Source: a virus. From it: a stretch of DNA of 21,301 nt. The notes beneath the pieces were generated by a model, which made no database searches, was not told the origin of the DNA, and saw only the letters and a list, made by a program, of their open reading frames with translations. Below are positions 217-21,301 of the stretch, one piece after another. The stretch spans positions 1 to 21,301 of IMG/VR virus record IMGVR_UViG_3300030118_004504, one strand, 5' to 3'. The stretch's first letter is position 1. Each line of letters begins with the position of its first letter. Both the position numbers and the translations under genes were made by a program.

Positions 217-849
217 TCAAATTCTCAACCAACCTAATCCGTGAGCACTATTAACCACAGTAACAGTAATAGAATTACTTGTAATGGCTGTAACAGGGCC
301 TGATATTATTGGTGTGTCAGTATTGCTGCCTGTTATAGTTGCAATATATATTATATCTCCTATACTTATAACACTACCTATGGGTTTTGTAAATGTAACA
401 ACTGTAGCGTTTGCAGGGCCTGATGCTGTCTCTGCAACACCTAATCCACTAGCTGATCTTAATTTCCAATCTACTGCACCCGCATTGTTTCTAATATATG
501 AAAACCACTCTCCTTCTTTTTGTTCGAAATAAGTATCTAACATTGAACCACTGTTTAAATCGGTTTCAAGATTTGTAACAGCCCAACTAGCATTACTTTC
601 AAATGATATAGTTTTAAAAAGCTTTATATCTTTTGTAGGTAAAGGATTAAACACACTAGTTATACTCGATATACCTTGGACACCATAATAGTTATTACGC
701 AAAGAATTGGTGTTATGCCTATATAAATTACCGTTTTTAAAAGAATAAAAATATCCATTCATACCTATCATCTTTTCTGGGAAAAAAGTATAGAAAGACG
801 GCCACCCTGGTGTTTTTCCTTCGGGGTTATATGAAATAGTTATAGCCAT
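217..849 (-). CDS. Phage tail/fibre-associated structural protein (210 aa)
   Basis: The N-terminal half contains a pattern common in marine and crAss-like phage structural proteins: GWPSFYTFFPEKMIGMN followed by GYFYSFKNGNLYRHN (about residues 14-45), rich in aromatic residues and expected to be beta-structured. The C-terminal third (about 140-205) is a small Thr/Ile/Val-rich beta module. An upstream TTG at 858 keeps the frame open, but I chose the ATG at 849: it lies two bases after the previous stop and follows the same TTAATTAT-type leader as the gene before it. The protein has no signal peptide or membrane segment. Its place after the muzzle and fibre genes suggests a distal tail or host-contact part; the exact role is unknown. 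Confidence 0.75.
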   Translation of the reverse strand: MAITISYNPEGKTPGWPSFYTFFPEKMIGMNGYFYSFKNGNLYRHNTNSLRNNYYGVQGISSITSVFNPLPTKDIKLFKTISFESNASWAVTNLETDLNSGSMLDTYFEQKEGEWFSYIRNNAGAVDWKLRSASGLGVAETASGPANATVVTFTKPIGSVISIGDIIYIATITGSNTDTPIISGPVTAITSNSITVTVVNSAHGLGWLRI

Positions 850-851
850 AA

Positions 852-2084
852 TTAACAAGTTTGTGGGAACGAGGCAGCTACCTGACCTAATAACCCGGTT
901 ATTTGTAAATAAGTTCTGTTGCCTGCACCTGTACTAGATGGTTGTAATTGATAATAACCTGCTGGTAAAGGTGAAGTTCCTCCTGCATCTGAGTAACAAT
1001 GATCTCCTGCTGTTGGATTACTACCTGAGCCATCATGATGGAAGGTTTGATTTATTGGGAATACACTACCATCTACAGCACAAACATTATTAAATACTCC
1101 AGCTGATGATGATGAATAAGATGTTAATGAAGCACCACAACTAGTAATAGCTGTAACCACTCCTGTTGCTATTTGAGCCACAGACCCAGCTGTAATCTTT
1201 ACAAAACCATCTGATAAAGGTGTTGCCCCTGTATTGTTTGAAAAAACAAAATTACCTACTTGAGGTATAGTGTTAGTGTCAACTGCTGGTGTGGAATTAC
1301 CTGTAGTAGATGAGTTTTTAGCAAAGAAAAAAGTTTGATTTTGTGTTGCGCTACAAGCAGCTCCTGATGTAGATTCCACAGTGCTACTCGAAAATGATGA
1401 TAACGCCGTAGGACATATTGCTTTAAACCTAAATTCAGTTCCTGAGCATACGCCTGCTATTTTTAATTGCACATTTGCTGGTGAAGCATTAGGTTTAGGA
1501 ACAACAAGAGTATAATATATATTACCTGTTGCGTTTAAATTTACGGTTCCTGATGGAGGTATAATTATATTTGTATTATTTCCAGTGTCAACAAAGGCAG
1601 TTCCGCTATATATAAATTGATCTACAGAAGTAGTAGAGCCTTGTAAATCAGTTGTGTCACAATTCGTTTCACCTGTTTTTCCAACAAAATTTAATTGACC
1701 TGAAGTAGCTATTTCTACTCCATGAGCATTTGTTGTCAGTGTGTTAAATGTAGCTGAATCATACGTTGCCATTATACCGTCTGGTATATTGAATGGTTGA
1801 AAATATACAACTATAGCTCCTACATCTGTTCCTGTGTCTATGTCGATTGTATACTCACCCACGCTTCCACTAGCCGACACATCTGTGTTACACGCTACAG
1901 CACATTGACAATTTGCTGATGCACCTAAAGTTCCACCTGTTTGTTGTCGATATATATTTGAGTTTTCAGTAGGGTCTTGATACCAGCCATCAGGCGCTTT
2001 GGCCGTTAAAGCAGCATCAGTCCAAACAGCAGTGGCTGTTGAAAACAAAGCTGTGTCTATGTAATATGTATTGTCTTGTGCCAT
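852..2084 (-). CDS. Tail fibre-like modular protein with Cys-ended repeats (410 aa)
   Basis: This Ser/Thr/Gly/Asn-rich, beta-predicted protein is built of modules. Residues 1-60 (YYIDTALFSTATAVWTDAAL) repeat a segment near the C-terminus of the preceding 1607-aa protein. Residues about 70-222 form a separate beta region of unknown fold. Residues 227-316 and 317-410 are two copies of a third module, beginning with SxFSSS/TSYSSS, passing an internal AC/VC and an NFVFSN/DHCYSD strand, and ending in SC or TC. The same module closes the 1607-aa protein. It starts four bases after that gene's stop, so the two are almost surely co-transcribed. It is likely a tail fibre or decoration protein contacting the host surface. 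Paired cysteines are notable for a protein assembled in the cytoplasm. Receptor-binding function is inference. Confidence 0.8.
   Translation of the reverse strand: MAQDNTYYIDTALFSTATAVWTDAALTAKAPDGWYQDPTENSNIYRQQTGGTLGASANCQCAVACNTDVSASGSVGEYTIDIDTGTDVGAIVVYFQPFNIPDGIMATYDSATFNTLTTNAHGVEIATSGQLNFVGKTGETNCDTTDLQGSTTSVDQFIYSGTAFVDTGNNTNIIIPPSGTVNLNATGNIYYTLVVPKPNASPANVQLKIAGVCSGTEFRFKAICPTALSSFSSSTVESTSGAACSATQNQTFFFAKNSSTTGNSTPAVDTNTIPQVGNFVFSNNTGATPLSDGFVKITAGSVAQIATGVVTAITSCGASLTSYSSSSAGVFNNVCAVDGSVFPINQTFHHDGSGSNPTAGDHCYSDAGGTSPLPAGYYQLQPSSTGAGNRTYLQITGLLGQVAASFPQTC
855..1136 (-). repeat. Protein module B, copy 3 (C-terminus of 410-aa protein)
   Basis: Residues 317-410. It has LTSYSSSS, an internal VC, then QTFHHDGSGSNP, GDHCYSD, LPAGYYQL and a terminal GQVAASFPQTC. 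It aligns along its length with copy 1, the last 79 residues of the 1607-aa protein, and with copy 2. Confidence 0.75.
1137..1406 (-). repeat. Protein module B, copy 2 (410-aa protein)
   Basis: Residues 227-316. It opens with LSSFSSSTVESTSGAACSA, carries a longer Ser/Thr-rich insertion before VGNFVFSNNTGATPL, and closes with TGVVTAITSC. The TSxGAAC stretch is closest to STRGEAC in copy 1. Confidence 0.7.
1905..2084 (-). repeat. Protein module A, copy 2 (N-terminus of 410-aa protein)
   Basis: Residues 1-60 contain YYIDTALFSTATAVWTDAAL, then AKAPDGWYQ, then a YRQQTGGTL stretch and a Cys pair. This mirrors FYIDTSSFATATAVYTDATL, TKAANQFYQ, VREQASGAL and QTC in the C-terminal region of the 1607-aa protein. 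Confidence 0.8.
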
Positions 2085-2088
2085 ATAA

Positions 2089-5000
2089 TTAACAAGTTAG
2101 TAAATTTTCTACCATTCCATTTGAATTTACATATATAACTGATGTTGCGCTTAATGAATAATATCCAACACCTAGTTTAGTTGTGGCGTTGCTATTTGAG
2201 TACACAAAATTATTAACCACTGGTGTAGCACCTGATCCATTATGATAATAGGTATTTGTTTGACCTACCCCACAAGCTTCACCTCTAGTAGATTTAACCA
2301 CTGAAGAACTATAGCTCGTATAAGTACATCCAGAGCAACACAAATCATCTGCGCTAGTACTACTATAACATAATCCTGCTGGTGTTCCGCAAGCCCCACA
2401 CGTTTGACTTGGTAACAACGCTCCGCTTGCCTGCTCTCTTACACTATTTCCTGTCTGATAAAATTGATTAGCTGCTTTTGTTTGTAATGTAGCGTCTGTA
2501 TACACAGCTGTTGCTGTTGCAAAAGACGAAGTGTCTATGTAAAACGTAGCTGTACTTCCGCTACAACAAGCTATATTACTTGTAGCTCCAAATCTTAAAC
2601 TAATAGATGTAGGTGTTCTGTAATCCCAAATCAAATATAAATAAGTATTAGCGCTTGGGTTATTATAAGTAAATGCAGCTTGAAATAATCCGCTTGAAGG
2701 GTTAGTTATAGGTGTAGCAGTAGTAGCTGCAGCATCTATAGTAGCCCACTGAGCCGCACTATATTGTGTATTTGAAACAAGATACTTAAATTTATTTATA
2801 GATGAATCAAAATTAAAATCATCAAAATCTTTTTTATTAGATTGCAAAGTCAATGATGATCCAGTAACAGGAAATAATCCTATTGATGACTGGCCATCAG
2901 TACTTATAAAACTAGTTACCGGACTTGATGCAGATGTGTTAAATGTAATCAATTCACTTGATGTCGGACTTGTTTCAGTATTTTTTTCCCACAAATATTG
3001 ATTATGTATAAATTTATTATTATCCGCTGGACTACCTAAAGCCATCTGAACCACCCTTAATAAATTGGTAGCAGGGCAAGATGGTGTTATATTATAAGAA
3101 GCTGTTCCGTTAGGTGTTATTGTAACAGTTGCTGTTTGTGGATTAGCTAAATTTTTATCAAAATTTAATGTTCCATTGCCTGTAATAGACTGACTAATTA
3201 CATTACTACCGTTCCAATTTACTACCAAAGTAACACTACCTGAGCTTACATTATAGGTAAATGTTACAATGCCTTGCGCTACAGTAAAATCTACATTAAA
3301 GCTTGCTGCAGCGGTGACTGATTGTTTTGCTATATTTACTCCACAATTTGTGTCAGGTATAACTATTGGCATAGATGTATTGCTAGAGCTTAACACATAC
3401 TCGTCCATATATGGGTCATAGCCGCCAAGTTTGAATTTATTAAAATCACTAATAAATAAATCTCTAAAGTATGACCGCATGCCTATATCTGAAACCACAT
3501 TTAATTGTTCTTGTTGACTTACACCATTTAACATTATAACTGCAGCTCTTTTAGCGTCAGTAAAAAATTTATAAGCTCCATAGGTTGCAAAACTTTCTGG
3601 GTTTGCACTTATACCGTACTCCTCTACTCTTGCCACTTGTGTTCCTAAAACTAAATTACTTGCTGTCACTGCACTATCTCCACTAGTCGTACTAAGTAAA
3701 TCTTTATTAGCTAGTACATAACTAATTTTATCTTCTTGTAAAACAAGTATGTCTGTTTGTCTAGGATGTAATATTTGTATAGGCCCATACGAAACTTCTA
3801 AATCTTTAAAGTTTGCTAAACCTAAATTAAATTCATTTAATCTGTTTATGTTTGTTTCTTCTACATATATACCACTATATGTTAAACTAGCAAACCTGTC
3901 TGCTTTTTTATAATCTTGCTGTGATACTGAAGTTACACGCTGACCTAAATTAAATGATTGACCTACTAATGAATCTTCTACTTTAAAACTTTCTACCCCA
4001 TTACCAAAAGCGAAACAATCGAAAAACCCTAAGTTAACTAAAGCTGGTACCGAAGCGGTTTGATTTTGGTCTCCTGTTTCTGTTCCAGACATATGAAAAT
4101 TATTTGTAATATCATAATTTGTATCATCCTCATAATATATGTCATTATCAACATCAATAGGTGTCGTTTCAAAAACCATCAAGGAATCAGCTATTTGTAC
4201 AATAATTCTTCCTTCAACAACAGAATATTTTCCTCTTAAACTTCCACACCCTGGTGTACCTGAGCTTATACCAAGAAATAATTCATTACTATTTGATGGT
4301 GCTGCAGAGTCACTTGTGGTAAATTGATATCTATTTTCGTTAATTACTTTTGTCGGTACAGTACTATTCGACGGGTTTAATGTACTTATGTAAACATTTG
4401 TATTTGCTCCTGAATCGTCCTGACTAGTATCTACACCACCTTTAAAATCTATATTTTCTCCATTAACAAAATCAAACAAGTTACTATAATCTGTACTTGC
4501 TTGAAATGTTCTATTGTAATCATATATTTTAGAACCACATCCACCTGAACCTGTGCCCACTCTAGTAAATCGTAAATCAAATGTTACCAAACTAGAAGCA
4601 GGTATTTCTAAATTTGTTTTTACACCCGTTGGTGAAGTTTCGAAACATGGTATAAGTATAGCTGGTTGATTGTTTCTTTTTACTGTTCTAGCTATTTCTG
4701 TTTGTGAGTCAAAAAAAGAACTACTATCAGAAGTATCAACAGTAAAACTTGTAGGTTTTATCTGCATATATAAACCAGCTAGCTCTGATATAAATGGAGG
4801 TTGTCCTCCGGTCTCTATACTTGCAGAAGGTGTTAAAAAGTTTTGTGGCTTTGCTTCTACTTCTAAAACTTCACATTCAGCTAATACCGATCTTGCGCCT
4901 TGACTATCTGCTTTTACCCTGAGTATGTCTCCAACTTTTACCTTTGTTTGATTTTGACCCTCTAACTTAAAAAAAACAGAGTTATCTGTAGTGTTTGAGT

Positions 5001-6912
5001 AATAAAAATTACTATATATTGTGTCATACGGCCCCTCTGCACGTTTAACCACAAACTTATATTTAGTAGCCCAGCTTGGGGGTTTTTGTGTTGTAGGTAT
5101 AGTTACTTTTATTTTATTTTGTATAATAGAATTACTAGCTGGAACAAACACGGTATTATCTGGAGACACCAACGCTGTAGTGCTTCTTGCGTATTCGTCC
5201 ATATAGACTATACCTACTTCGTAATTTCTATTACTATGCAAGCTTTTTATACTGTTATTTCTTAAAAATTGTACGTCTGCTCTTGTAAAATTAAAATACT
5301 CGAATAACGCTGCAGCTGTGCCTCCACCAGCTTCTATGTCTACAAATTTCATTGCAGGTATTTGTATAGTAATATTATCGCTTCCTGGACTAGTGGTTAT
5401 TAAAAACCCTTGATCTAATCCTGTAATACCGCTTGCGTTTTTTTGCCATGTGACATTATTATCAGAGTCAGCAGGATTTGTTATACTACAATTAAATGTA
5501 TCTGTATAAGATGTTCCGCTTGCACAGTTTGCTACAGTTTGAAAATACTGTATTTGAGTTCCTATTGCTGCTTGAAAAGCATCGCTTGATGCCATTTCAT
5601 AAACAGTGTTAAAATCTTGTGGCAGTGTAAATACATTTGTTATTTCTGTAGAACCTTGCTGACCTGTTACGGTTCCACTGTTTCCAGTGTATTTATTATG
5701 ACTAAATTGTAAATCTAATGATAGAAAAGCACCAGCTTTTAATTTTGTTTTTACAGTCGATAAATCCATAACTATTGCTGATTGAGCTATGGTTTCAGTT
5801 GTGTCAATAGTATAGTTTACACCATTTGCAAAACTTGTAGATATTTCAGTTAAATCTATGTTTTGTGTGGTTAATTCACTTTCAAAATTTATTTGACAAG
5901 TTGAACCATTTGAATCTATCAAATCATTACCGTCTTCATAATTTCCATATATCAATCTGTTACCCATTATAGTTTGCCCTTTTGCAACTAATGGCACATT
6001 GTCATATAATCTCAAAAGCTCCGAATCAGGCAATGTAGTATATACTTTGCTGTTGGTAAATGTTTGTGTCTGTATAGAATTATCAGGCCATCCAAAATCA
6101 TCCTTGTCAAACTTTTCTATTACATTAATTAGGTTCGAGTCAGCAAACTTAAAACACAAGTCTATGCCTTTTACTAAACTAGAGCCTGTGTTAAAACTAA
6201 CCTCTACTGCATTGAATATGTTTTTCATACCTGCATTTAGATTGGTCGAAGCGTCCAAAGAAAATACACCAGGGACAAATGCAATATCTGTAAATTGTGA
6301 TAAAGCGCTATATTCGTCATCTTCGTATTTATATCTATACGCAAATGTTACCATTCTTGATTCCAAAAAGTTTGCTTCTGTAGCTTGGCTTAACATAGTT
6401 ATGCCAGGTGCCTCCGCAGGCGGTTTTACTATAACTTTTAATTCTTCAGCTGTAACGTTAGTATAATCTTTAGTTACATTTATTTTTCTAGGCGGATTCA
6501 AGTCATCAGTAAAAAACAATAAATCACCAATTTTATTTATACCTGTAATTAAATATTGTGAATTAAAATTTAAAACACTAGACGAAACAACATGGTATCT
6601 TAGTAGTTCAGAATTTGTATTAAAAGAGACAATCATATCAGCAGTCGGAGAAGCTATAAACCAATAAATAGTTTCTTTTTCTCCATCCTGAAACGCCCCT
6701 ATACAAACACCATCTGTTAAAGGTGTATTGTTGTGCTTTAATGTTGTGAGTTGTGTGTTGCCTTTTGAGTTTTCTACTGCACCTATTTCTGTCGTTTCTG
6801 TAGAACCCAGTCTAACATTTATAGCATCGACGTATTCTCCCGGTGGAAGAATCCTTTCATCCACGCTTTTATTCATTCTACCCGCTACAAAGTTTGTTGT
6901 TCTTATAGGCAT
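2089..6912 (-). CDS. Muzzle/tail-stabilisation protein (P22 gp10/crAss muzzle-like), 1607 aa
   Basis: The N-terminus carries the hallmark of crAss-like tail stabilisation (muzzle) proteins: NFVAGRMNKSVDERILPPGEY, then VDAINVRLG and IGAVENSKGNTQLT (residues 7-56), followed by a propeller-like beta region (IYWFIAS, LLFFTDDLNPPRKIN). In related phages this protein forms the distal nozzle of the short tail, and it is very large there too. The central 900 residues are Thr/Ser/Asn-rich beta strands. Residues about 1050-1200 hold a conserved-looking core (LEVSYGPIQILHPRQTDILV, KFFTDAKRAAVIML). Residues 1449-1607 are an extra Cys-rich tail made of modules A and B, shared with the next gene. The ATG at 6912 lies one base from the preceding stop, so translation is probably coupled. 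Assignment rests on pattern recognition; its exact tail role is inference from family. Confidence 0.8.
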   Translation of the reverse strand: MPIRTTNFVAGRMNKSVDERILPPGEYVDAINVRLGSTETTEIGAVENSKGNTQLTTLKHNNTPLTDGVCIGAFQDGEKETIYWFIASPTADMIVSFNTNSELLRYHVVSSSVLNFNSQYLITGINKIGDLLFFTDDLNPPRKINVTKDYTNVTAEELKVIVKPPAEAPGITMLSQATEANFLESRMVTFAYRYKYEDDEYSALSQFTDIAFVPGVFSLDASTNLNAGMKNIFNAVEVSFNTGSSLVKGIDLCFKFADSNLINVIEKFDKDDFGWPDNSIQTQTFTNSKVYTTLPDSELLRLYDNVPLVAKGQTIMGNRLIYGNYEDGNDLIDSNGSTCQINFESELTTQNIDLTEISTSFANGVNYTIDTTETIAQSAIVMDLSTVKTKLKAGAFLSLDLQFSHNKYTGNSGTVTGQQGSTEITNVFTLPQDFNTVYEMASSDAFQAAIGTQIQYFQTVANCASGTSYTDTFNCSITNPADSDNNVTWQKNASGITGLDQGFLITTSPGSDNITIQIPAMKFVDIEAGGGTAAALFEYFNFTRADVQFLRNNSIKSLHSNRNYEVGIVYMDEYARSTTALVSPDNTVFVPASNSIIQNKIKVTIPTTQKPPSWATKYKFVVKRAEGPYDTIYSNFYYSNTTDNSVFFKLEGQNQTKVKVGDILRVKADSQGARSVLAECEVLEVEAKPQNFLTPSASIETGGQPPFISELAGLYMQIKPTSFTVDTSDSSSFFDSQTEIARTVKRNNQPAILIPCFETSPTGVKTNLEIPASSLVTFDLRFTRVGTGSGGCGSKIYDYNRTFQASTDYSNLFDFVNGENIDFKGGVDTSQDDSGANTNVYISTLNPSNSTVPTKVINENRYQFTTSDSAAPSNSNELFLGISSGTPGCGSLRGKYSVVEGRIIVQIADSLMVFETTPIDVDNDIYYEDDTNYDITNNFHMSGTETGDQNQTASVPALVNLGFFDCFAFGNGVESFKVEDSLVGQSFNLGQRVTSVSQQDYKKADRFASLTYSGIYVEETNINRLNEFNLGLANFKDLEVSYGPIQILHPRQTDILVLQEDKISYVLANKDLLSTTSGDSAVTASNLVLGTQVARVEEYGISANPESFATYGAYKFFTDAKRAAVIMLNGVSQQEQLNVVSDIGMRSYFRDLFISDFNKFKLGGYDPYMDEYVLSSSNTSMPIVIPDTNCGVNIAKQSVTAAASFNVDFTVAQGIVTFTYNVSSGSVTLVVNWNGSNVISQSITGNGTLNFDKNLANPQTATVTITPNGTASYNITPSCPATNLLRVVQMALGSPADNNKFIHNQYLWEKNTETSPTSSELITFNTSASSPVTSFISTDGQSSIGLFPVTGSSLTLQSNKKDFDDFNFDSSINKFKYLVSNTQYSAAQWATIDAAATTATPITNPSSGLFQAAFTYNNPSANTYLYLIWDYRTPTSISLRFGATSNIACCSGSTATFYIDTSSFATATAVYTDATLQTKAANQFYQTGNSVREQASGALLPSQTCGACGTPAGLCYSSTSADDLCCSGCTYTSYSSSVVKSTRGEACGVGQTNTYYHNGSGATPVVNNFVYSNSNATTKLGVGYYSLSATSVIYVNSNGMVENLLTC
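2092..2328 (-). repeat. Protein module B, copy 1 (C-terminus of 1607-aa protein)
   Basis: Residues 1529-1607 contain TYTSYSSSVVKSTRGEAC, TNTYYHNGSGATP, NFVYSN, VGYYSL and a terminal GMVENLLTC. The pattern is shared with the two copies in the 410-aa protein downstream. All three end in Thr/Ser-Cys. Confidence 0.75.
2329..2568 (-). repeat. Protein module A, copy 1 (1607-aa protein)
   Basis: Residues 1449-1528 begin CCSGSTATFYIDTSSFATAT and end LCYSSTSADDLCCSG. The first 60 residues align with the N-terminus of the 410-aa protein; the last 20 look like a shortened cysteine-rich repeat. Confidence 0.75.
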
Positions 6913-12794: not shown

Positions 12795-13331
12795 TTAGAT
12801 GGTTTTGTAGTGGTTATACAAATCCATCCCTAGCTTTTCACCAGTGCTTTTATCTGATTCGTAATGAACATTTGCCATTATTCTACTTTTAGATATATTT
12901 TTAGCAGCCTTTTCAAACTCTGGTGTCATTTCTGGAAACATATCACTCAAGACTTCTTTTAATAAAAAAGCTTGTGCTGAATGTCCTGAAGGAAAAGCAG
13001 GTGTTTGGGCTGATGCCATTTTAACAAATGGTAAATTGATTGAAAATTTTTTAGCAACTACATTTGGTCTTTTTCTATTATGATAATTTTTTATTTTCAT
13101 GATCGGCTTTCTACTTTCAACAATTATTTTTTGCACTAATTTATTAGGAAACTTTCTTGTTCTATTTGAAAATAAATTCTTAAAAACTTTAAATATATCA
13201 TCAAACTTGTTAGCAAAACTTTTGTCCATGGGTTTTGACAAAAGAGATTTAATTTCTCCAAGTGTTTTTAAAGAATTATCGGGTGGGTATTTTACAGTTT
13301 TGTATTTATGCCAGTTAAAATTATCAAACAT
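12795..13331 (-). CDS. PAP2-superfamily phosphatase (178 aa), soluble, in head module
   Basis: All three signature motifs of the PAP2/class A acid phosphatase-vanadium haloperoxidase superfamily are present and intact: K81-x6-R88-P89 (motif 1), P114-S115-G116-H117 (motif 2) and S149-R150-x5-H156-x3-D160 (motif 3). In this family His117 is expected to help protonate the leaving group and His156 to be the phosphoryl-accepting nucleophile. The substrate could be a phosphomonoester, a nucleotide or a lipid phosphate. The protein has no signal peptide and no obvious membrane segments, unlike most lipid phosphatases of the family, and it lacks a large N-terminal domain. It begins in a TAATG junction with the portal gene, so it is translated with the packaging genes and is followed by the scaffold gene. 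A virion or lysis role is possible; no function in phage assembly is established here. Confidence 0.85.
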   Translation of the reverse strand: MFDNFNWHKYKTVKYPPDNSLKTLGEIKSLLSKPMDKSFANKFDDIFKVFKNLFSNRTRKFPNKLVQKIIVESRKPIMKIKNYHNRKRPNVVAKKFSINLPFVKMASAQTPAFPSGHSAQAFLLKEVLSDMFPEMTPEFEKAAKNISKSRIMANVHYESDKSTGEKLGMDLYNHYKTI

Positions 13332-18012: not shown

Positions 18013-18265
18013 ACCCTTTTGGTATATTTTTTGTTTTTAATTCGTTTCCTTCTAATAAATCCTTTTCATCTTCAATTCTTTTTAAGATTTCAAAAGCATC
18101 AAATATTGCAAGTTTTTTTGTTGCAGCTGCATTTTTTAATCTGTCTGCTGCTAACTCATCATCTTTATCATACTTAATAATATCTTCCTTTGCAACCTTA
18201 ATAAGCTGTATTACCGCTTGCTCTCCAGCCTTTATAATTTTTTCTTTTATTTCTTTACTAGTCAT
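17990..18265 (-). CDS. Small helical protein, candidate small terminase subunit (91 aa)
   Basis: The protein is short, helical and charged: KEIKEKIIKAGEQAVIQLIK (residues 4-23), then a second helix with DELAADRLKNAAATKKLAIF (36-55) and FEILKRIEDEKD (59-70), ending in a Lys/Arg tail. It overlaps the start of terL by 23 bases in another frame and starts inside the previous gene by eight bases, so all three are translationally linked. Its place immediately before terL is the classical place of the small terminase subunit, which recognises phage DNA. The helical, KNAAATKKLAIFDAFE-type sequence is common before terL in related phages. There is no clear helix-turn-helix, so the role is a candidate only. 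Confidence 0.65.
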   Translation of the reverse strand: MTSKEIKEKIIKAGEQAVIQLIKVAKEDIIKYDKDDELAADRLKNAAATKKLAIFDAFEILKRIEDEKDLLEGNELKTKNIPKGFAESRSK

Positions 18266-18827
18266 TTAAAACCATTGTTATATTATTTGTAAACATCCTG
18301 TATAACTTTTCCCCTTCTACATAAAATTCATATTCACTTTCGGGCGTAAAAGATATTTGGTCACCAACTTTTACACCCATGTTTTCAAGTTCTTTGTTTA
18401 TATATTTTATAGTGCCTATTAATGGTTCTTCCTTTCCTGTTTTACTAAGATAAGATTTTTTTGCCTGTACAGGCTTCACAAAACAATATTTAGAGTGACA
18501 TCTCCACTCTTTGTGATTGTGATATAAAAAGAATTGGTCAAAATCTATAAAAAATAAATCATCACGAAAAAAACTTCTTCCGCTTTTTTCTACACCTTTC
18601 ATATCGTAATAAAACTTAAAAACGTTGTGATGAACCAGTAAAATATCTTTAGGTTGTATTTCACCTATATAATCTATAGGTGTAGAGATTACTTCTGCAA
18701 ATCTATTGGATGATTTATGGTCTTCTAATGAGACGCTTGTTATAAAGTCTAAGCCTGAAATTTTTTTTATATTACTGTATCTCCTACCAGAAACAGGACG
18801 TACAATAAAACTAAAAGGCGAACGCAT
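18258..18827 (-). CDS. Two-lobed GroES-like (Cpn10) co-chaperonin (189 aa)
   Basis: Two Cpn10-like halves can be read. Lobe 1 (residues 5-102) opens SFIVRPVSGRRY, continues RFAEVISTP and EIQPKDILLVHHNVFKFYYD, and closes LFFIDFDQFFLY. Lobe 2 (about 114-188) opens YCFVKPVQAKKS, then PLIGTIKYI, then VKVGDQISFTPESEYEF and closes LYRMFTNNITMVL. GroES has the same order: IVKR near the start, RGEVLAVG, VKVGDIVIF, and a final EVLIMSESDILAIV. The insert around 65-110 with HHNVF and RSFFRDD is extra. It would cap host GroEL, perhaps to help fold the capsid protein, as phage T4 gp31 does. The gene is joined to its neighbours by one- and eight-base overlaps. Related marine phages carry this protein type, annotated as Hsp10-like. 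No experiment is implied by the sequence alone. Confidence 0.65.
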   Translation of the reverse strand: MRSPFSFIVRPVSGRRYSNIKKISGLDFITSVSLEDHKSSNRFAEVISTPIDYIGEIQPKDILLVHHNVFKFYYDMKGVEKSGRSFFRDDLFFIDFDQFFLYHNHKEWRCHSKYCFVKPVQAKKSYLSKTGKEEPLIGTIKYINKELENMGVKVGDQISFTPESEYEFYVEGEKLYRMFTNNITMVLND

Positions 18828-20226: not shown

Positions 20227-21301
20227 TTAAGGTATGTTTGAAATAGTTTCGATTGTAACTCTATCTCCTCTAGGCGCACCATCACCACCACTTTGTGTAT
20301 AAACAAAGCTACAATTTATATGTGTTCCTGGATTATTAAACGCAAAAGTAATTATATTGTTTTGGTTTCCTGATCCACCATGTGTAACTGCTACGCTTGT
20401 TTGGTGATTATCTATATTTTCTACATTATTTTGGCCACCACTGTTATTCCAATAACCACCAATAGTTCCTTGTGTTAAACCACTGGTGCTTGTAAATGTA
20501 TAATCTAAAGACCATGCTTTCCAACTTGTAGCTGCATAAGTAAAAATAATCTCATCTCCAGAAACGCCACTTCTAGAAAAACCTTGCATAACTCTTATTG
20601 TACCACCCGACTGAACACCCCAACCTCCGGTGTTTGTTAAAGTAACTTCAGGATCGTTATCAGCAGATTGAGATATTATAGCACCATAAGAATTTAAACG
20701 GGCTGTAGGTACTGTAGTTCCTATACCTACATTACCCCCAGAAAACATAGCTACTTTTGGCGCACCTGTAATGTCATTAATTGCAATAAAATTACTATCA
20801 CCACTAGCAACACCATTATATTCTATTGACATACCCGCACTTATTGACTGTGCTGTACTTTCAGAAAATTGTATAATTGGCCGTTGAGATGTACTGGCTA
20901 TTATTGCAACTATATCTTGTGTTCCAATATTAGTAACACCGCCCATTACAGAAAGTTTTGCAACAGAGGGGTCATTTCTGTTTATACCTACACTTCCACT
21001 AGAGCTAATACGTATTCTTTCTGCACCATTAACTCTAAAATTCATAAAGTCACTTGTATGATTATAAGTGATTCCACCTGCATTATCATCGTCACCATCC
21101 GCAAAATAAATATTTGAACCTTGGTCATTGTCAGAAGCTAAAGTAATTCCTGTAAAATCGTTGGCTTCGTAAATAACTAAATTATCAGCATTTGAATTAT
21201 AGCTAGTTGGAGTATTTGTTCCAAGCCCTACATTTCCTGAAGTATCAACTACTAATCTTGTAGCAGTTGCTGTATTATCATATAAAGTAAAAGAATCGTT
21301 A
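20227..21301 (-). CDS. Tail fibre/appendage protein, 5' end cut by window edge (357 aa visible)
   Basis: An internal ATG at 21045 could be taken as a start, but the frame is open upstream to base 21301 and the added 85 residues are of the same kind, so the gene clearly begins beyond the window. Three short glycine motifs recur in the visible part: SGNVGLGTNTP (about 21-31), GSVGINRNDP (102-111) and GNVGIGTTVP (189-198). Such VGIGT-P repeats are common in beta-solenoid fibres of bacteria and phages of marine Bacteroidota. The last 120 residues (TIRVMQGFSRSG to TIETISNIP) form a separate C-terminal domain. It has no S74 peptidase-type ending that I can see. It lies before the packaging genes, away from the other tail genes. 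It probably binds the host surface, by inference. Confidence 0.78.
   Translation of the reverse strand, partial: NDSFTLYDNTATATRLVVDTSGNVGLGTNTPTSYNSNADNLVIYEANDFTGITLASDNDQGSNIYFADGDDDNAGGITYNHTSDFMNFRVNGAERIRISSSGSVGINRNDPSVAKLSVMGGVTNIGTQDIVAIIASTSQRPIIQFSESTAQSISAGMSIEYNGVASGDSNFIAINDITGAPKVAMFSGGNVGIGTTVPTARLNSYGAIISQSADNDPEVTLTNTGGWGVQSGGTIRVMQGFSRSGVSGDEIIFTYAATSWKAWSLDYTFTSTSGLTQGTIGGYWNNSGGQNNVENIDNHQTSVAVTHGGSGNQNNIITFAFNNPGTHINCSFVYTQSGGDGAPRGDRVTIETISNIP

Follow-up and report, generated by a model that had tools for sequence, protein, structure and literature searches.

Genes at the locus

The window, as we call the whole stretch of viral DNA analysed here, spans 21,301 nucleotides (positions 1 to 21,301 of IMG/VR record IMGVR_UViG_3300030118_004504). 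Its genes, encoding TerL, portal, capsid, ring-type proteins and muzzle, are those of a crAss-like podovirus. The 1607-residue muzzle (tail-tip) protein is encoded on the minus strand at 2092..6912, in a gene standing after the portal, capsid and ring-protein genes. Its core, residues 1 to about 1434, is homologous to crassvirus-type muzzle cores (residues 7-1434 match PHROG family phrog_14478 with E 1e-240), and is followed by two modules, A (residues 1454-1508; 2389..2553, minus strand) and B1 (residues 1529-1607, ending in LLTC; 2092..2328, minus strand). Nearly abutting the muzzle gene, and on the same strand, is a gene for a protein of 410 residues (852..2084). Module alignments and HMM profiles resolve this protein into an A-U-B-B series, an architecture that is also found in relatives L001-L004 and L014. 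Module A (residues 4-61; 1902..2075, minus strand) aligns to A of the muzzle; the all-beta domain U (residues 62-225; 1410..1901, minus strand) is recognized by the U profile, and modules B2 (residues 226-317, ending in TSC; 1134..1409, minus strand) and B3 (residues 318-410, ending in QTC; 855..1133, minus strand) by alignment and B profile.

The next gene, MUZC (217..849, minus strand), encodes the muzzle C-terminal domain (Pfam PF25729, crAss_MUZ_C, E 1.6e-14), which is missing from the window's muzzle polypeptide. Both Cellulophaga phage phi38:1 and the elemo phages of Flavobacterium have it joined immediately to the end of the muzzle core. Its separation here indicates that the muzzle of the window lineage is split, with the 410-residue protein gene lying in the split. 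What has been taken for an integral domain of the muzzle protein can thus separate, an accessory cassette filling the gap.

The MUZC reading frame of the window (213 residues as against 259) is about 50 C-terminal residues shorter than that of L002-L004, the difference falling at 217-370. It ends in SITVTVVNSAHGLGWLRI, where the relatives have SITVDASGAGAT...MKSYP. The site is near the contig end; the shortening may reflect truncation, recombination or an assembly fault.

The muzzle of PhiCrAss001, gp44, shares with that of the window a homologous C-terminal domain (PF25729), the position after the ring-protein genes and a length made variable by insertions (PMC10172136); it differs from the window lineage in that the latter has a separate MUZC gene and A, U and B modules at the junction. 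In sequence, the window's muzzle core resembles those of gut crassviruses marginally (E 0.1, over the N-terminus). The match to phi13:2, used as outgroup in the crassvirus structure paper (PMC10172136), has E 2e-97, and the cores of the Pachyviridae muzzles (Cellulophaga phages phi18:3 and phi13:2) are 31% identical to the window's. In these two phages U forms the muzzle C-terminus, preceded by a Big_9/cadherin-like domain, and a separate MUZC gene comes next; they have neither A nor B nor a stand-alone A-U-B gene. Both gp114 (muzzle-U) and gp115 (MUZC) of phi18:3 have a virion-protein annotation based on MS/MS. The crassvirus muzzle is located at the tail tip and has been proposed to touch the cell (PMC10172136).

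Homology and conserved features of the modules

Smith-Waterman scores were determined for each module pair and compared with those of 2000 shuffles of the same composition. The two A modules score 119 (shuffle mean 28, maximum 54, z 17.3), B1 and B2 also 119 (mean 31.7, maximum 62, z 14.8), B1 and B3 98 (mean 29.5, maximum 58, z 13.0). The B2/B3 pair is weak by itself (score 44, z 2.4); the B profile detects both members, with E 2e-24 and 1e-16 in the L014 orthologue. These data confirm the preliminary description of modules common to the muzzle C-terminus and the 410-residue protein, with the coordinates given there. Convergence of low-complexity sequence without common descent has in its favor the Ser, Thr, Gly and Asn richness of the modules; since no shuffle equalled the A/A, B1/B2 or B1/B3 score, and since Cys, Tyr, Gly and Arg positions are fixed in 162 A and 193 B copies, it can be dismissed with near certainty, and shared Ser/Thr/Gly composition does not account for the similarity. 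In the window the two genes share a run of 13 identical bases at their 3′ ends (ACTTGTTAATTAT); this was considered as a duplication trace and rejected, as it is not conserved in relatives.

The A and B modules are themselves related. A near-identity of A and B profiles from an initial round of iteration was discarded, each profile having recruited members of the other; the two sets were then separated before profile-profile comparison. The comparison aligned A to positions 25-81 of B with a probability of 95% and a score of 39.9, the maximum in 300 column shuffles being 17.6 (an earlier set of 100 had contained one unexplained outlier, 134). By this measure A and B are homologous and make up a single repeat family, A corresponding to a B-like repeat minus its first 25 residues or so.

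Cysteines are conserved in all three module types. B has a Cys near position 20 in 96% of copies and one at its end in 88% of 193. The TC or SC ending originally described for all B copies holds within the window; family-wide the residue before the Cys varies (TC in 61, NC in 26, SC in 23). A carries a C-terminal C..C (conserved in 99% and 91%) and U three Cys positions (81-91%). Such conservation suggests disulfides made outside the cell. The tail of PhiCrAss001 contains disulfides (PMC10172136).

An AF2 model of the 410-residue protein is all-beta and confident (pLDDT 86.9); that of the muzzle end is fair (82.0). Foldseek found no significant match in the PDB (best E 0.02, none at E ≤ 0.001), and hence no recognized binding fold. 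One of the weak matches links U to the collagen-binding domain 1nqj (probability 0.98, E 0.04; collagen-binding/PPC-like). Sequence searches of Pfam, PHROGs and the PDB assigned the 410-residue protein to no family (Pfam, none at E ≤ 1). BFVD contains clear homologues that are nameless in the tables used, and the A, B and U profiles would annotate many phage genes now without a name. Species genomes searched for A and B yielded no bacterial or prophage copies, a weak negative given the narrow patterns used.

Cassette architectures among relatives

Searches with the A and B profiles identified some 160 loci. To these were added the best 80 matches of a module-independent search with a muzzle profile, a limit that biases the added loci toward near relatives. 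HMMs built by iteration for each of A, B, U, MUZ and MUZC served to read the architectures in 128 representative muzzles, a few of which lie close to a contig end and were possibly read too short. The cassette was found between MUZ and MUZC in the A-, B- and muzzle-based samples. The commonest complete layout, MUZ / A-U-B / MUZC, occurs in 36 representatives; further cassettes read A, A-B, A-U-B-B, A-U-B-B-B-B, A-A-U-B-B or A-U-B-U-B, and there is a three-gene form, A-B / A-A-A-B / A-B-B-B. A nearly always comes first (120 of 123 cassette genes) and B mostly last (92 of 123). Genes adjoining the muzzle have from 1 to 5 B copies, forming a tandem array of variable copy number. The domain separating A from the B copies had been described as unique; it is so inside the window and is common in relatives, where the U profile matches most A-U-B genes.

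Of the 128 representatives, 71 have no module in the tail of the muzzle itself. The remainder end in B (22), A-B (20), B-B (5), A (4) or, more rarely, A-U-B, U or a fused MUZC (2 each). U lies at the muzzle C-terminus in phi18:3, phi13:2, L082 and L212, and a whole A-U-B series is fused onto the muzzle in L082, L091 and L212.

Three loci have another gene in the muzzle/MUZC slot (L183:7065-7499, L185:6818-7261 and L214:10191-10685; MNYTEVL.LINTNLASASNITAAEHREVE..., phrog_5194). Checked for divergent A, B or U, these genes proved unrelated, and the slot thus takes other accessory tail proteins as well. With about half of the muzzles module-free and an unrelated slot gene in a few phages, the modules are dispensable or replaceable. 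In L126 (3-6225), a muzzle with fused MUZC is followed by an 878-residue protein with cadherin/Big_9, U and B; U and B are present there outside the muzzle/MUZC split.

Exchange between close relatives

Comparison of the window with L001 revealed an abrupt change in DNA identity. The two sequences are 93-100% identical over most of muzzle residues 1-1000, 71-78% identical at residues 1150-1607 or thereabouts, and 96-97% identical in the B modules of the 410-residue protein gene. Between L001 and L002 the pattern is reversed. Informative sites switch at window position 3692 (chi-square 587, against a permuted maximum of 21.5) and again near 1905 (about 1911-1899), at the A/U boundary, the change at 1914/1911 being uniform. 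Between window and L001, the core has a dS of 0.18, the muzzle end one of 1.26-1.28, module A of the gene one of 1.50 and B2/B3 one of 0.04-0.09. Identity, breakpoints and dS together indicate that the muzzle end (residues 1074 or so to 1607) and the A module of the next protein moved as one block (1905..3692, minus strand). Adjacency alone could explain this joint inheritance, which would also fit a docking role of A. Values of dN/dS are low almost throughout (dN about 0.01-0.25, dS mostly near 1) and give no sign of positive selection.

Origin of the muzzle modules

The preliminary description proposed that the 410-residue protein gene arose when the muzzle 3′ end was duplicated, U being inserted later, as a new domain, between A and B. 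The modules do occur in the same order at both ends, and the fused A-U-B of L082, L091 and L212 implies that sequence can cross between the muzzle and the next gene. The distribution of the modules points the other way. In a tree of muzzle cores (FastTree, approximate, with some long branches), the muzzle A-B tail is restricted to one nested clade, to which the window belongs. Next to this clade stand L082, whose muzzle carries a fused A-U-B, and L178, whose muzzle has just an A. Most of the remaining lineages, those closest to the Pachyviridae among them, possess the stand-alone A-U-B gene, which thus occurs in most lineages with an A-B-free muzzle; 71 of the 128 representatives are without any muzzle module. 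Moreover, U is the standard center of this gene across relatives, not an insertion. Nor are the modules of one phage particularly close: muzzle A is 48.6% identical to gene A within the same clade and 41-51% to those of other clades, muzzle B 37% identical to B of its own gene, as against 36.6% when compared with the muzzle B modules in other clades. Because modules of the same phage are about as diverged as those of distant clades, a recent duplication is not visible; the module trees, with 53 and 79 columns, are too short to give its direction or date. We consider birth of the gene from the muzzle end unlikely. To judge from the sequence distribution, the stand-alone A-U-B gene appears older than the muzzle A-B, which the ancestor of the window's clade would have gained when cassette modules were duplicated or became fused to the muzzle.

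Modules in the tail-fibre locus

In the close relative L003, a gene for a 158-residue B-module protein lies between two tail fibres ending in an S74 chaperone (Peptidase_S74). Genes of U-B-B or B composition come after tail-fibre genes in L132, L163 and L130, and a crAss-type TerL is found slightly further downstream of the module genes in L132, L163 and L158. Phage phi18:1 has a B module in gp62, directly after a tail protein detected by MS. One and the same phage can carry modules at both places, the muzzle slot and the tail-fibre locus. The recurrence of B in the tail-fibre cluster provides our best evidence that the modules are part of the host-contact apparatus.

As is characteristic of receptor-binding proteins, the modules are located in tail or tail-fibre clusters and recombine between relatives. 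In phages with domain-shuffled receptor-binding proteins, domains of host-contact proteins recombine as in the cassette, and fragments are common to otherwise unrelated proteins, as are the window's modules (PMC10684548); what sets the present case apart is the presence of one repeat family in the muzzle tail, the slot genes and the tail-fibre cluster. The original picture of a swappable, repeat-built set is borne out by the strong variation in module number and order, the recombination between relatives and the recurrence of B in the fibre locus.

In L171 (1980-2663), B is followed by a phrog_6121-like region; phrog_6121 also covers the S74 end of the L132 tail fibre, and the layout suggests a B module inside a self-chaperoned fibre-type protein. 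The window itself contains the C-terminal part of a tail fibre (20227-21300, minus strand; phrog_18345, 4e-8), cut off by the contig end. The matching place in relative L255 is occupied by three fibre genes and a B-module gene.

Possible function of the cassette

Sequence comparison is sufficient to establish the homology of the modules, their position, their variable number and order, the exchange between relatives, one of whose breakpoints lies at a module boundary, and the reuse of B in the fibre locus. Host contact by the modules is plausible. The interpretation that we favor, and hold to be probably correct, is that of a modular tail-tip cassette between the muzzle core and the split-off MUZC, with the stand-alone A-U-B gene as the older form and outward-facing U and B modules binding the host. 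The slot holds at least one accessory protein made of short Cys-containing beta repeats (B and A) and the beta-sandwich-like U. These proteins would be virion components located at the tail tip, the N-terminal A docking each of them to the muzzle or to a neighboring protein, while U and the B repeats would point outward and attach to the host surface, the probable targets being glycans or surface proteins of marine Flavobacteriia. Array length and type would vary by unequal exchange, and altered repeat number or type would alter binding. No A-U-B gene turned up in any isolated phage; that the 410-residue protein is part of the virion is our inference.

A second interpretation, which we regard as the less probable one though deserving of consideration, is that the modules are structural glue (spacers, assembly or stability domains) with no part in host recognition, their copy number drifting neutrally. 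The strong purifying selection and the lack of any enzymatic or lectin match would agree with this, and a nearly obligatory N-terminal A is what one would expect of an assembly domain. Moreover, BACON domains, a comparable repeat, are linkers in bacteria (PMC6949934). Yet B reappears in small proteins encoded among the tail fibres and in phages that are not related, the region recombines against the flanking core and array length varies between related phages. In crAssphage, BACON tandem repeats have been proposed to aid host binding and to arise via domain duplication and horizontal transfer (PMC6949934). Like the cassette, they are small tandem beta domains of variable copy number in tail-region proteins; unlike them, the cassette modules have conserved Cys pairs, the 410-residue protein has no BACON match in Pfam and the window's array sits in the gap separating the muzzle core from MUZC. 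The muzzle core/MUZC split is a new place for such repeats.

A bolder variant of the cassette interpretation takes donor-strand complementation of pili as its model. Lacking the first 25 or so residues of a B repeat, A would be completed by a C-terminal strand of the muzzle or of the preceding protein, and separate proteins would so form a chain at the tail tip, making the muzzle/MUZC slot a dedicated combinatorial adhesin site. Such a mechanism, which we rate as a long shot, predicts co-inheritance of the muzzle end and the next A, as the block at 1905-3692 suggests.

The cassette offers a defined genome site, a small module set and natural variants with which changes at the tail tip could be matched to host range, and is of relevance to host recognition by uncultured marine relatives of crAssphage.

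Other genes in the window

Between the portal gene and the gene preceding that for the capsid protein is a gene for a 178-residue protein (12795-13331, minus strand) with the motif PSGHSAQA. Its match to PAP2 phosphatases (E 4e-6, 27.0 bits) falls just under the 27.2-bit cutoff, and a PAP2-like gene would be odd in a head-gene operon. The gene adjoining TerL (18258-18827, minus strand) has a weak match to Cpn10, a GroES-like co-chaperonin (E 0.0012). The core proteins of the Pervagoviridae include Cpn10 (PMC8776804).
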